Shown one piece after another: positions 14,932 through 59,390 of a stretch of DNA of 64,000 nt (positions are counted from its first letter, which is position 1; each line of letters begins with the position of its first letter). Source of the stretch: Pilibacter termitis (GTDB lineage Bacteria; Bacillota; Bacilli; Lactobacillales; Streptococcaceae); NCBI RefSeq assembly GCF_900167335.1, contig NZ_FUXI01000015.1:1-64000 (forward strand). Reading direction: 5' to 3'. The translations under genes were made by a program, and so were the position numbers. A model generated the notes under the pieces. That model ran no database searches and was not told the origin of the DNA. It worked only from the letters and a program-made list of their open reading frames with translations.

Positions 14932-14944
14932 AGTTAAGGTTAAG

Positions 14945-15060
14945 TAATTAACTGTACCGAAGACAGTAGGTGAGGCGACTCGTAAATCCTACCGAGGACA
15001 CAATATGAGAAAATCATTTGTCCCTTCATGTCTTTTTGTGTACGTGAAGTTTTTTTATTG
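14945..15060 (+). ncRNA. ribosomal protein L10 leader
   Basis: The leader contains ACCGAAGACAGTAGGTG and later CCTACCGAGGAC, the hallmark pairing and kink-turn region of the Firmicute L10(L12)4 leader. The L10-L12 complex binds this RNA and lowers expression of its own operon. The placement directly before rplJ is as expected. Boundaries are approximate. Confidence 0.85.
15024..15057 (+). terminator. attenuator hairpin of the L10 leader
   Basis: CTTCATG pairs with TACGTGAAG (with a G-U pair) and is followed by eight T residues, before the rplJ ribosome binding site. It is likely the terminator half of the autoregulatory switch. Confidence 0.7.
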
Positions 15061-15102
15061 TAAAAAATCTTCACCACAAATAAAAACGGAGGTGAAACAT
15101 AC

Positions 15103-32364: not shown

Positions 32365-32544
32365 GGACACCTCTAAAAACTCGCACTTATCCTAAATTGC
32401 TAGTTTTCTGATTTGCTTTGTCAATCTCCTCAACCTTGTCTAGCTATAAGGGGCAGGAGTTTGGTCGCTGTGAAACTTTGTTTCCAGTAAATAAATGCTG
32501 TGGCTCACTACGACAAACTCCTAAACGCCCCTCTCCGCTTTTCT
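32365..32544 (-). repeat. long-inverted-repeat element, copy 1 (truncated)
   Basis: GGACACCTCTAAAAACTCGC through TCTAGCTA, AGGGGCAGGAGTTTGG, TTTCCAGTAAATAAATGCTG and CCCCTCTCCGCTTTTCT corresponds to the reverse complement of the copy at 59101-59381. It lacks the opposite end, so the element is truncated at 32544. The following 32545-32678 carries TTGTCTAGCTCCGAGGAGCT, a small palindromic stretch, and otherwise only the promoter region of the next gene. Confidence 0.85.
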
Positions 32545-32678
32545 TTGTCTAGCTCCGAGGAGCTGGCAACTGCTCACAATATCGCTAGAAACTTACTCCA
32601 AAACCAATTTTCTTTTTCTTTCCCAACCCCTATGTTAAAATACCCTTATACTAAATAATCCTGAAAAGAGGTAACCCT

Positions 32679-39179: not shown

Positions 39180-41819
39180 ATGTCTCAAAAACGTTTATTA
39201 TTGATAGACGGCAATTCGATTGCCTTTAAAGCCTATTTTGCCCTACCGAAAACTTTCACCAATAAAGCCGGACTACATACGAATGCAATTTATGGTTTTC
39301 ACACCATGCTAGATAGTGTCCTTGCAAGAGTTGAGCCAACGCATATTTTGGTCGCTTTTGATGCGGGGAAAACGACATTTCGTACGGAAATGTTTCAAGA
39401 TTACAAAGGAGGTCGTCCGACAACAGACCCAGAACTTCGGGAGCAATTTTTGCCACTGCGTGAAATGCTTGCGGCACGTTCTATCCGTTATTATGAATTA
39501 CCAAATTATGAGGCGGACGATATTATCGGCACGCTTGCCACACGAGCAAGTGAGGCGGGATTTCTTGTGACAATTGTATCAGGAGATAGAGATATGACCC
39601 AGCTTGCCACGGAGAAGATTACAGTTGAGATTTCTAAAAAAGGGGTGAGTGACATTGAGGAGTACACACCTGCCGTGGTGCAAGAAAAAATGGGCATTAC
39701 ACCAAAGCAAATCATTGATTTGAAAGGACTAATGGGAGATAAATCGGATAATATTCCGGGAGTAACAAAAGTTGGTGAGAAAACAGCATTGAAACTTTTG
39801 TGGGAATATCAGACGGTTGAAGGGGTTTATGAGCATATTGATGAGTTAAAAGCCTCTAAAATGAAAGAAAATCTGATAAATGAACAAGAAATTGCTTTGC
39901 TATCGAAGAAACTCGCAACGATTAACCTTACTTCCCCAGTAGAAATTGAGCTTGATGAATTGGCAATGAAAGAGCCAGACGCTGAAAAATTAATCGCTTT
40001 TTACCAAGAAAATAATTTCAATGAATTTCTTTCACGCATGGGAAGTGCCGTCGAAGAAGAAGTTCAGGAAATCTCTTACGAAGTCGTGGAAAATTTCTCA
40101 GCAGAACATTTGGCAAACGCTGAAGTGTTTCACTTGGAAACATTTGGAGAAAATTACCACGAGGCAGAAGTGTTGGCAGCGGTTGTTGGAAATAAAGAAA
40201 AACTCTTTGTTACAAGCAATCTCGATACACTTTCTTCAAGTGAAGCAAAAAAATGGTTAGATGATAGAACAAAAGAAAAAATTGTTTTTGATGTAAAAGC
40301 AATTTCGGTGTTTCTTTCCAAAATGGATTTGAGCATAAAAGGAGTGAAACATGACGTTTTACTTTCAGCTTATTTGCTTGATAAATTGGACAAAACGCAG
40401 GAAATTGCAGGAGTGGCAAAGAAATTGCACACCTCTCCGATTAAATTTAACGAGGACGTGTACGGCAAAGGAGCAAAATACGCTGTTCCAATGTTTTTTG
40501 AAGAAGTCGAATCATTTGCCGCTCAAAAAGCATTTGCTACGCTTAATGTAAGTGAACGATTGCACGAAGAACTAGAAGAAAAAGAAATGTTGCACTTGCT
40601 TTTGGAAATGGAAATGCCTTTAGCGATTGTTTTGTCTGAAATGGAAGAAAAAGGAATTGCCGTAAAACCCGAAGTGTTAGATGAACTTTCTGTTGATTTA
40701 ATGAGTAGAATTGAGGAATTAAAGACAAAAATTTATGCACAAGCGGGTGTGGAATTGAATCTTAATTCGCCAAAACAGCTCGGAGAATTGTTGTTTGAAA
40801 CGCTTGGTTTTGATTATAAACTTTACTCGAAAAAGACAAAAACAGGGTATTCCACCAATGCCGAAGTGTTAGAGAAAATGAGCGTGGTTGCACCGATTGT
40901 GGATGATATTTTGACGTATCGAGAACTTCAAAAATTGCAATCTACCTATATTGAGGGATTGAAAAAATCAAGGAGAGCAGACGGAAAAATTCACACACGT
41001 TATCAACAAGCACTTACTCAAACAGGACGGCTTAGCTCGGTTGACCCGAATTTGCAAAATATCCCTATTCGTACAGAGGACGGACGGAAAATTCGTCAGG
41101 CATTTGTGGCGAGCAAGGAAGATTGGGTGATTTATTCCTCGGATTATTCACAAATTGAATTGCGTGTGTTGGCTCACATTTCTCAAGACGAGCATTTGAA
41201 ATCTGCCTTTATGGAAGGGCAAGATATTCATACGAGTACAGCCATGCGTGTGTTTGGGATTTCCTCTCCAGATGAGGTTACACCACTTGATAGACGAAAT
41301 GCCAAAGCGGTTAATTTTGGTGTGGTCTACGGCATTAGTGAGTGGGGGTTGGCAAAAAATTTAGGGATTGAGCCATATAAGGCGAAAGATTTTATTGACA
41401 AATATTTTGAAAAATATCCGGGAATTAAGCAATATATGGAAGAAGTCGTGCGTGAGGCAAAAGAAGTGGGCTATGTAGAGACTATGTTTCACCGTCGTCG
41501 CAATTTGCCAGAAATCAATGAGCGAAATTTTGCACGTAGAAGTTTTGCAGAACGTACGGCGATTAATTCGCCAATTCAAGGAAGTGCAGCGGATATTTTG
41601 AAGATTGCCATGAATAACTTGCACACTCGTCTAGCAAAAGAAAATTTACAAGCCAATTTGTTGTTACAAGTGCATGATGAGTTGATTTTTGAAGTGGCAA
41701 AATCAGACGTTGAGGCGTTGGATAAAATTGTCCGAAGTGAAATGGAAGATGCTGTAAAACTTTCTGTTCCGCTTGTGGCAGATAGTGCGTGGGGTGAGAG
41801 CTGGTATGACGCAAAATAA
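39180..41819 (+). CDS. polA: DNA polymerase I
   Basis: Encodes 879 residues from ATG 39180. The 5'-nuclease domain (1-290) has LLLIDGNSIAFKAYFAL and VSGDRDMTQL. The middle domain lacks the proofreading acidic residues: VFHLETFGEN replaces the usual FDTET, so 3'-5' exonuclease activity is probably absent, as in Bacillus Pol I. The polymerase domain has YSSDYSQIELRVLAH, RRNAKAVNFGVVYGIS and LLQVHDELIFEV. It overlaps coaE by 14 bases. The usual mutM between polA and coaE is missing. Confidence 0.97.
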   Translation: MSQKRLLLIDGNSIAFKAYFALPKTFTNKAGLHTNAIYGFHTMLDSVLARVEPTHILVAFDAGKTTFRTEMFQDYKGGRPTTDPELREQFLPLREMLAARSIRYYELPNYEADDIIGTLATRASEAGFLVTIVSGDRDMTQLATEKITVEISKKGVSDIEEYTPAVVQEKMGITPKQIIDLKGLMGDKSDNIPGVTKVGEKTALKLLWEYQTVEGVYEHIDELKASKMKENLINEQEIALLSKKLATINLTSPVEIELDELAMKEPDAEKLIAFYQENNFNEFLSRMGSAVEEEVQEISYEVVENFSAEHLANAEVFHLETFGENYHEAEVLAAVVGNKEKLFVTSNLDTLSSSEAKKWLDDRTKEKIVFDVKAISVFLSKMDLSIKGVKHDVLLSAYLLDKLDKTQEIAGVAKKLHTSPIKFNEDVYGKGAKYAVPMFFEEVESFAAQKAFATLNVSERLHEELEEKEMLHLLLEMEMPLAIVLSEMEEKGIAVKPEVLDELSVDLMSRIEELKTKIYAQAGVELNLNSPKQLGELLFETLGFDYKLYSKKTKTGYSTNAEVLEKMSVVAPIVDDILTYRELQKLQSTYIEGLKKSRRADGKIHTRYQQALTQTGRLSSVDPNLQNIPIRTEDGRKIRQAFVASKEDWVIYSSDYSQIELRVLAHISQDEHLKSAFMEGQDIHTSTAMRVFGISSPDEVTPLDRRNAKAVNFGVVYGISEWGLAKNLGIEPYKAKDFIDKYFEKYPGIKQYMEEVVREAKEVGYVETMFHRRRNLPEINERNFARRSFAERTAINSPIQGSAADILKIAMNNLHTRLAKENLQANLLLQVHDELIFEVAKSDVEALDKIVRSEMEDAVKLSVPLVADSAWGESWYDAK

Positions 41820-42444
41820 GACATTTTTTCTTGGACTAACAGGCGGAATTGCGACAGGAAAAAGTACAGTGGCGGATATTTTTCGCTCGCAAGGGATTCC
41901 AGTAATTGACGGTGATATTGTTGCAAGAAACGTACAAAAAAAAGGAAGTCCTGCACTTGCAAAGATTGTGGCAACATTTGGGGAAATCATGCTTTTGCCT
42001 AACGGAGAGTTAGACCGAAAAGCGTTAGGAGAGCGGATTTTCCACTCGAGAGAAGAACGTGAAAAATTAGATAAACTGATGTCTCCGTTCCTTCGTGCAG
42101 AGTTTGACAAGGAAAAAGAACGATTGATACAACAAAACATCCCTTTTGCAGTATTGGATATTCCGTTGTTATTTGAAAAAGATTACACAAAGGCAGTTGA
42201 TGCGATTATGCTTGTTTATGTGCCAGAGAAAATTCAGTTGGCTCGTTTGCAACAGCGTGATAATTTGAGCGAAGAAGCGGCACTTAAACGCATTCTTGCT
42301 CAATGGTCAATCGAGGAAAAACGAAAATTGAGCGATATTCTCATTGATAATACACATTCATTGGAGGAAACGAAAAGACAAGTTTTGGCTTACTTGTCTG
42401 AGGTATCCATTAAGGACACTTCTAAAAACTCGCACTTATCCTAA
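41806..42444 (+). CDS. coaE: dephospho-CoA kinase
   Basis: ATG 41806 with GGGGTGAGAG upstream; it overlaps polA. Encodes 212 residues. The P-loop is GLTGGIATGKST (residues 10-21), followed by PVIDGDIVARNV and the lid LQQRDNLSEEAALKRI. It performs the last step of CoA synthesis, phosphorylating the 3' hydroxyl of dephospho-CoA. The last ~11 codons (IKDTSKNSHLS) come from the inverted-repeat element that begins at 42410, so the original C-terminus has been replaced. Confidence 0.95.
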   Translation: MTQNKTFFLGLTGGIATGKSTVADIFRSQGIPVIDGDIVARNVQKKGSPALAKIVATFGEIMLLPNGELDRKALGERIFHSREEREKLDKLMSPFLRAEFDKEKERLIQQNIPFAVLDIPLLFEKDYTKAVDAIMLVYVPEKIQLARLQQRDNLSEEAALKRILAQWSIEEKRKLSDILIDNTHSLEETKRQVLAYLSEVSIKDTSKNSHLS

Positions 42445-42572
42445 ATTGCTAGTTTTCCGATTTTCTTCGTCAGTCTCCTCAACCTATGAACCACATAGCT
42501 TTCGTCGATTTCCTCGAAAATCGAAAAACTAGCTAATTTAGTCTTAAGCGGAGTTTTTAGAGGTGCCCTTAA
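42410..42572 (+). repeat. long-inverted-repeat element, copy 2 (short form)
   Basis: The left end TTAAGGACACTTCTAAAAAC and right end GTTTTTAGAGGTGCCCTTAA are inverted copies. Inside, the left arm (TCGCACTTATCCTAAATTGC, TAGTTTTC, CTCCTCAACCT) joins directly to ATGAACCACATAGCTTTCGT and the right arm AAAAACTAGCTAATTTAGTC. Relative to the copy at 59101, a central module of about 120 bp is absent. It sits between coaE and nrdR and supplies the coaE stop codon. Confidence 0.9.
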
Positions 42573-57720: not shown

Positions 57721-58480
57721 AGGTTATTTGATAGATTTAGACGGTACGATTTATTTAGGAAATCAAGGGATTCCTGCGGGGAAACGATTTGTGGAAGAAT
57801 TGCAAAAGCGAGAAATTCCGTTTTTATTTGTGACGAATAACACGACAAAATCTCCCGAAGTCGTAGCGAATCGATTGGCAAATGAATTTGACATACACGT
57901 AAAAAGTGATTTAATCTATACCGCCACTCTTGCAACGATTGATTACATGAAAGAGTTAAACCGTGGAAATAGTGTGTATATTATCGGTGAATATGGACTA
58001 AAAGAGGCGATTTTTGATGCTGGTTTTGTTTGGAATGAAGTAGACCCAAGCTATGTCGTGGTAGGATTGGACAGTGATTTGACTTATGAAAAAGCGGTGA
58101 AAGCGTCCCTTGCCGTACAAAATGGAGCAACATTTATTGGTACCAATCCCGATTTGAATATCCCAACAGAGCGTGGATTATTGCCGGGAGCTGGAAGTGT
58201 GGCACGTTTTATTGAGGCAGCGACACAAGTAGAGCCAATTTACATTGGGAAACCGAATGCGATTATTATGAATAAGGCAGTAGATAGTTTAAATATTCAC
58301 AGAAGTGAGTGCCTAATGGTAGGGGACAACTATTTGACGGATATTCAAGCAGGAATAAAAAATGATATAGATACTTTGCTTGTCACCACGGGCTTTACAA
58401 GTCCTGAAGAAGTGCCAAACTTGCCCGTTGCACCTACTTTTGTAGTAGCGACACTTGATGATTGGGACTTTGACAAATGA
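57710..58480 (+). CDS. HAD-family phosphatase of the NagD/YutF type
   Basis: ATG 57710 overlaps the thioesterase gene by 11 bases. Encodes 256 residues. HAD motifs are [15 protein letters not shown] (nucleophile Asp and the following Asp), [26 protein letters not shown] (Lys) and [16 protein letters not shown] (acidic pair). The cap is of the C2 type. The substrate is not evident. The next gene overlaps its stop, so all three genes are coupled. Confidence 0.93.
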
Positions 58481-59127
58481 AAATAGAGAATCTAAAAGAA
58501 TTTTTTGGCAAATTTTGTGTTTATATGAGCATTTTTCTAGGAAGTATTGTGTTTGTCATTCATGCAAAATTTTTGTATTTAATTATTTTACGCACAGAAA
58601 AATTACAAAATATAGTTCCATTAAGCGAGAAAGAAATTATCAAAAATTATGATGCTTTAATGGACTACATGAACAATCCATTTGAGAAAACTCTTGTAAT
58701 GCCTAACTTTCCTTCGTCTACGCAAGGCTTGATTCATTTTGCTGAGGTGAAAAATTTATTTATCTTAGCGACTGTTTTATTTGTTTTGGCGTTCCTTGGT
58801 GCCATTTGGTATCTTTTGAAAATAAGACGTGAAAATGCTTGGTGGAAATTCATTTTTTCTGTAAAAATCGCTATGCTTGCTCCATTTGTCATTGGCATTT
58901 TCTCCGCTTTAAATTTTGATGTAGTTTTTACTTTGTTTCACAAAATCCTCTTTCGCAATGATTTTTGGATTTATGATGCAACAAAAGACCCGATTATCAA
59001 AGTATTACCAGAAAACTATTTCCTTTTGTGTTTCTTTGTTTTCTTTGGACTGGCAGAAATTTTATTGGCAGGATTGTTTTGGAAAGCGAGAAAATCAATA
59101 AAGGGCAACTCTAAAAACTCCGCTTAA
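58477..59127 (+). CDS. DUF1461 (TIGR01906) integral membrane protein
   Basis: ATG 58477 overlaps the HAD gene. Encodes 216 residues with about four hydrophobic segments. The N-terminal half has [20 protein letters not shown] in an outside loop, and [20 protein letters not shown] is the diagnostic block of the family before the last membrane segment. The function is unknown. The last eight codons or so (KGNSKNSA) and the stop are provided by the inverted-repeat element at 59101, so the native end is altered. Confidence 0.9.
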
Positions 59128-59381
59128 GACTAAATTAGCTAGTTTTTCTTGTTTTCGAGAAAATCGACGAAAGCTATGTGGTTCATAGAAAAGCGGAGAG
59201 GGGCGGTCAGGAGTTTGTCGTAGTGAGCCACAGCATTTATTTACTGGAAACGAAGTTTCCAGTGCTGTTGCGAACTGCGACCCAACTCCTGCCCCTCGTA
59301 GCTAGACAAGGTTGAGGAGATTGACAAAGAAAATCGGAAAACTAGCAATTTAGGATAAGTGCGAGTTTTTAGAGGTGCCCT
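59101..59381 (+). repeat. long-inverted-repeat element, copy 3 (longest form)
   Basis: Ends are AAGGGCAACTCTAAAAACTC and GAGTTTTTAGAGGTGCCC, inverted copies of each other. The left arm has CGCTTAAGACTAAATTAGCT; the right arm has AGCAATTTAGGATAAGTGCG. The interior holds nested pairings: AGGGGCGGTCAGGAGTT with AACTCCTGCCCCT, and CTGGAAAC with GTTTCCAG around GAA. It matches 32365-32544 in reverse and 42410-42572 apart from a missing centre. No protein-coding frame is evident inside. Confidence 0.9.
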
Positions 59382-59390
59382 AAAATAAAA

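Follow-up and report, generated by a model that had tools for sequence, protein, structure and literature searches.

The dispersed hairpin elements of this region are composites: what the original prediction had described as the removable centre of a repeat is a second repeat family, here called U, captured by a MITE shell. The account that we consider very probable is that an IS1194-type MITE captured this hairpin repeat, that the resulting element is moved in trans and that the number of U units, n, changes by recombination or slippage. The layout is written A-U(n)-C, where A and C are the arms of the shell. The window is the whole 64-kb stretch of DNA that was analysed, and the genome is the 2.79-Mb assembly of 59 contigs from which it comes.

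The shell and its ends

The three copies were located where the original prediction had put them, and their limits have now been refined. Their parts, together with the two genes whose ends they supply, are as follows.

32365..32435, minus strand: arm C of the truncated copy
32437..32543, minus strand: U unit of the truncated copy, 107 bp, with an internal deletion
32546..32610, minus strand: second U unit, 3' part only (TTGTCTAGCTCCGAGGAGCTGGCAACTGC...), after which the element breaks off; the end is approximate, read against the U alignment
41773..42444, plus strand: coaE, with its last codons and stop inside the short copy
42410..42413, no strand: left target duplication TTAA of the short copy
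42414..42568, minus strand: short copy, a MITE shell C-A without U, 155 bp
42569..42572, no strand: right target duplication TTAA of the short copy
58477..59127, plus strand: lit (lipoprotein intramolecular transacylase, PF07314), with its last codons and stop inside the long copy
59099..59102, no strand: left target duplication TAAA of the long copy
59103-59380: long copy as a whole, 278 bp, with the TAAA duplication on both sides
59103..59187, plus strand: arm A of the long copy, bearing the terminal inverted repeat GGGCAACTCTAAAAACTC
59188..59308, plus strand: U unit of the long copy (the removable centre), a hairpin module GAAAAGCG...AGCTAGACA
59310..59380, plus strand: arm C of the long copy, bearing the terminal inverted repeat GAGTTTTTAGAGGTGCCC
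59381..59384, no strand: right target duplication TAAA of the long copy

The long copy consists of the short copy plus one 121-bp U unit and a linker base, and it is exactly this centre (59188-59308 and the one linker base) that the short copy lacks, as had been predicted. In the truncated copy, which starts at 32365, arm C is accompanied by one U and part of a second, and arm A is missing. None of the copies encodes a transposase. The hairpin expected on either strand was borne out by RNA folding, with z values of -11.0 and -11.3 against dinucleotide shuffles for the long and short copies. An Rfam search of the element returned no family above the gathering score, and the only Rfam match in the 64-kb window was the ribosomal protein L10 leader (RF00557, 76.5 bits) at 14939-15064.

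That these three might be the only copies was excluded by the wider data. Ends of the type GGGNACCTCTAAAAACTC, allowing at most 2 mismatches, were found 149 + 154 times (303 in all) in the 2.79-Mb genome, and a reversed control pattern gave 0 + 0 matches in the same genome. About 150 shell elements are present. The census is based on end patterns and on selected stretches of the assembly, and from these stretches 90 elements of 54-962 bp were paired. They fall into minis of ~55-71 bp, one element of 108 bp, A-C forms of 155 bp and A-U-C forms of 277-279 bp, and the longer ones carry a larger U variant or more U. Identical 4-bp flanks were found on both sides in 69 of the 90 paired copies, compared to a mean of 13.8 and a maximum of 23 with shuffled flanks, and 5-bp flanks were identical in none of the 90. 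The target site consensus of these copies is WTAW. The original prediction had proposed a search for TA or TTAA target duplications; the duplication found is 4 bp long and AT-rich, with TTAA among its forms. The dispersal of the shell is transposition. Copies that bear U (277-585 bp and larger) mostly show the same target duplications as the others, and the shared ends and duplications indicate that the U-bearing forms moved whole. The picture of a dispersed family with long inverted ends, a removable module and no transposase of its own is upheld.

These data make it exceedingly improbable that convergence among ordinary terminators or structured leaders accounts for the likeness of the copies. 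The hairpins do sit in intergenic DNA, as that explanation would have it, but full-length identity is high at many dispersed sites, the target duplications are exact and there is no match to an Rfam family.

When the 18-base end was scanned across named genomes, matches were obtained in many phyla. In other phyla it often bounds non-coding elements of ~100-290 bp with 4-bp duplications, and two IS of full length (1214 and 1261 bp) have it as well. The proteins of these IS, like those of truncated streptococcal relatives, are IS5-family transposases, and the nearest plasmid matches are annotated as IS1194. The IS1194 on a Lactococcus plasmid has the ends AAGGGCACCTCTAAAAAC, with TTAA as its flanking sequence. 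Within the window's own bacterial family, one genome holds an IS that matches the terminal inverted repeat at 18 of 18 positions and has TTAA on both sides. Because the ends and duplications are common to IS1194 and related IS, A-C is identified as an IS1194-type MITE. It has terminal inverted repeats in common with an IS, a 4-bp target duplication and a short, non-coding, dispersed, multi-copy form. The original prediction recognised no named family and gave a match of the ends to a described element as grounds for its own refutation; IS1194-type elements of the IS5 family have these very ends as their terminal inverted repeats, and the shell is no longer nameless. It resembles IS1194 (IS5 family, IS5 group) and its MITEs in the terminal inverted repeat GGGCACCTCTAAAAAC and the AT-rich duplication. 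It differs in that the A-C interior is not IS sequence, in that it holds a variable number of U and in that this assembly has no parent transposase.

A parent IS5-group transposase with the shell ends was sought in the 59-contig draft assembly and none was found. A MITE usually has its parent in the same genome, although this is not required; here the parent may have collapsed at a contig end or been lost. The original prediction had proposed a search for a transposase gene with the same ends; the assembly itself yielded none, and IS1194-type IS elsewhere do have such ends. A degenerate IS5 pseudogene on contig C45 (L118, G000:C45:11964-15401) was considered as the parent and rejected because its own ends differ from those of the shell and, like those of its relatives on plasmids, are AGAACCTGTTC-like. 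Next to this degenerate transposase lie a 71-bp mini copy and an end of the shell type. In the proposed mechanism the 18-bp ends would be recognised in trans by an IS5-group transposase, and transposition to WTAW sites would produce the 4-bp duplication.

Elsewhere, MITEs that have the GGGNACCTCTAAAAACTC end and 4-bp duplications occur in Oscillospiraceae, Treponema and Bacteroidota, among others, and in Akkermansiaceae and Epsilonproteobacteria this end lies close to contig ends. MITEs with IS1194-type ends apparently constitute a pan-bacterial MITE type. The shell family is absent from one congener genome (59% complete), and a plasmid search with the shell gave no match.

The central unit as a second repeat family

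U is a 121-bp hairpin module with the tips GAAAAGCG...AGCTAGACA. The centre of the long copy had been described as a removable insert. Removable it is, but not unique: within shells, U occurs in tandem with n ranging from 0 to at least 6, always in one orientation relative to A and C, and it is also found in free arrays without shell ends in the same genome. The end pattern GAAAAGCGN{85,115}AGCTAGACA has 245 exact matches in the genome and 0 for the control. The shell has captured a repeat that also lives outside it, alone or head to tail, mostly between co-oriented genes, and A-U(n)-C is transposed as a single piece. A longer U variant of ~180-182 bp, seen at L040, L041, L042, L059, L071 and other loci, has an extra hairpin of ~60 bp in its terminal loop (CTACACTTCGTTTCGCATACAGTCTTTCTAAGAATCAAAGATTCTTGAAAGACTAGCAT); this loop hairpin is a third level of nesting.

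The U end pattern was found in 36 of 399 Bacilli genomes, ~29 of them with at least 3 copies, and the control gave 6 single matches. Other genomes of the window's own bacterial family, among those searched, lack the pattern. In other genera U again forms head-to-tail arrays with short linkers, with a median fold z of -5.2 and the closing AGC:GCT in 24 of 30. The U of different genera are likely, though not proven, to be one homologous family, since they share their tips, length, closing helix and habit of forming arrays; their interiors differ. A Geobacillus plasmid carries tandem U, as found in a plasmid search with the U of a further genus, and plasmid searches with this genome's U and with U from another genus gave no match. 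The 98 matches to the U pattern in viral contigs are all single and are taken as chance.

A search of the literature by sequence and keyword, in which most subscription journals were out of range, returned nothing on U. The A-U(n)-C composite appears to be undescribed in the literature and data searched. As a mover of U, a Y1/RAYT enzyme was considered and rejected: this genome has no such gene, Y1 genes are no more frequent in U-rich genomes (~20/29 vs 19/29), and the RAYT-like genes of U-rich genomes have no U alongside.

Placement, exchange and pairing of U

Placement relative to genes was read at the listed places on contigs C8-C26 and at other loci, with plain ORFs as gene calls. There were 41 free U arrays with genes on both sides; 29 lay in the sense direction between co-oriented genes and 0 in antisense, the rest being convergent (7) or divergent (5). 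Where the upstream gene was co-oriented, 21 of 36 arrays started within ~25 nt of its stop codon. MITEs that bear U were instead spread evenly over the orientation classes (8, 7, 7 and 7), with a sense to antisense ratio of 8:7, and the 7 antisense cases lie between co-oriented genes ('<M<'). Sense-only free U and undirected U in MITEs, within one genome, is the most puzzling result of this work. Free U may insert in a direction tied to the gene, or antisense U (hairpin, then CGCTTTTC) may be polar and lost, as a hairpin with a T-run would act as a terminator inside operons. Simple purging of antisense U is disfavoured because the MITEs tolerate it between co-oriented genes.

In other genera, counting the first U per genome, there were 4 >U>, 9 <U<, 7 >U< and 4 <U>, with no sense bias. 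In these other Bacilli the first unit often lies 1-5 nt past a stop codon.

In the best tree built from the shell arms, the state n = 0 is gained or lost 16 times, and at least 8 changes are required by the branches with good support. Different n occur within two sets of identical arms, one of which has n = 0, 1 and 2. The forced changes and the identical arms with different n demonstrate that the centre is truly removable and replaceable. Units from shells and free units intermix (at least 6 switches). Within one array, unit similarity is 0.80 vs 0.76 between arrays, so the arrays are not explained by tandem duplication alone. Recombination would be the simplest route for exchange of U, with independent insertion as a real rival.

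In that rival, U is an autonomous-type mobile hairpin that an unknown enzyme inserts site-specifically and in one direction, and A-U(n)-C reflects repeated independent insertions, not recombination. The insertion sites would be those behind stop codons, those behind other U and a MITE loop that resembles a U end. The mixture of diverged units, not near-copies, within arrays agrees with it, as do the 29:0 bias of free arrays and their starts close to stop codons. Left junctions in the shell vary (TTCATA, TTCATC, TGACAA, TAACAA), the MITE loop AGCTATGTGGTTCATAG is like a U end plus linker (AGCTAGACATAG), and one-direction tandem arrays with linkers of 2-6 nt recur in other genera. However, no target duplication or constant target can be defined for free U, orientation is mixed in other genera, and the Y1/RAYT results given above offer it no enzyme. 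We regard autonomous insertion as possible, although we incline against it. Under capture by the MITE shell, U number would shift by homologous recombination among U units and the ~150 shells, together with slippage in arrays. At L042 (G000:C20:17300-18900) there are neighbouring U units that resemble reciprocal recombinants: a 5' arm in one pairs with the 3' arm type of another.

Covariation was assessed in 24 diverse U units. Among these, 97.9% of cells are paired and 26 of 36 pairs show compensatory change, compared to 35-44% paired when the partners were slid by 1-3 columns as a control. In a set of 142 units, linkage is strong between the two arms of a helical block, which can be up to ~80 nt apart (V 0.83-0.98; 0.52 for the outermost block, H1), and mostly weak between different blocks of one arm (0.19-0.47; one pair 0.75). 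Among near-identical units, some are distinguished by a 3-bp block altered on both arms, and there are also chimeric units whose arms do not match. A comparison of G-U with A-C cells between strands gave 42 vs 31 in core pairs. The pattern fits unit-to-unit recombination with arm-to-arm copying, or strong selection for the fold. Arm-to-arm copying is the process of template switching (PMC8794818).

Selection for a functional RNA hairpin alone, acting as an mRNA stabiliser, attenuator or processing site and with no template switching, would account for the high pairing and the 26 compensated pairs, and the sense-only free arrays at gene 3' ends and in operons would be in keeping with such a function. 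However, U in MITEs keeps its fold without any orientation, the wobble comparison is without clear strand asymmetry, and near-identical units differ by whole blocks of 2-3 pairs that were altered together in the two arms, as template switching predicts (PMC8794818). On balance, selection as the sole cause seems unlikely. With arm-to-arm copying included, recombination between units would join unlike arms within U; one arm would then be copied from the other by template switching at quasi-palindromes, and together with selection for the fold this would restore pairing block by block. U has no known benefit to the host.

A broader proposal, which we offer tentatively and at not quite even confidence, is that U represents an undescribed class of hairpin repeat of the Bacilli, with conserved tips and head-to-tail arrays that here lie sense-only at gene ends. 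Its stem would consist of exchangeable double-sided blocks kept paired by arm-to-arm copying, and the MITE shell would free U from its direction rule and spread it.

Relation to known repeat families

REP/RAYT systems and REPINs are likewise high-copy intergenic hairpins, some of them tandem. U differs from them in its length of 121 bp, in the lack of Y1 here and in that no U lies beside RAYT-like genes in U-rich genomes. EFAR of Enterococcus faecalis show modular assembly and length heterogeneity, as do the elements described here. By description they are set apart, as EFAR replace part of a stem-loop target and the present elements make a clean 4-bp duplication. EFAR have been named among MITEs (PMC3733652). 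The bcr1 repeats of the Bacillus cereus group are also structured, interspersed elements of ~150 bp in Bacilli (PMC6542083, PMC2267715); compared by description only, they differ in the TTTAT repeats reported for BCR mobility (PMC6542083).

The original prediction saw a resemblance to BOX or RUP in style only. The likeness to BOX lies in the layout, A-unit(n)-C. BOX of Streptococcus pneumoniae and BOX-type elements of S. suis have the form A-B(n)-C with tandem central units (PMC3049150), and here n runs from 0 to at least 6. In both, fixed ends surround variable tandem units, and the unit folds apart from the ends. Both also supply stop codons at gene ends, as reported for BOX (PMC3049150) and as seen here for coaE and lit. 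With the boxA-boxB(n)-boxC layout, these features are what would speak for a true element of the streptococcal BOX family. As compared by published description, however, BOX reportedly has ISSpn2-like ends (PMC3049150), whereas the ends here are IS1194-like with exact 4-bp duplications, and the 121-bp central unit is also found free, in sense arrays, and in many Bacilli. Membership of the BOX family itself is thus very improbable.

We would file the shell as an IS1194-type MITE and the whole, by its layout, as a new BOX-like composite. BOX has been known for decades, to our knowledge without a clear mobiliser or a source for its central units. In the present case the ends of the shell and its exact target duplications link it to a transposase family, and free copies of the central unit were found outside the shell. 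A BOX-like composite can therefore be read as one element captured by another. More than 140 sequenced U hairpins are available from one genome, in which blocks reassort while both arms stay matched, and with this set nature offers a way to tell selection from template switching as the source of compensatory changes.
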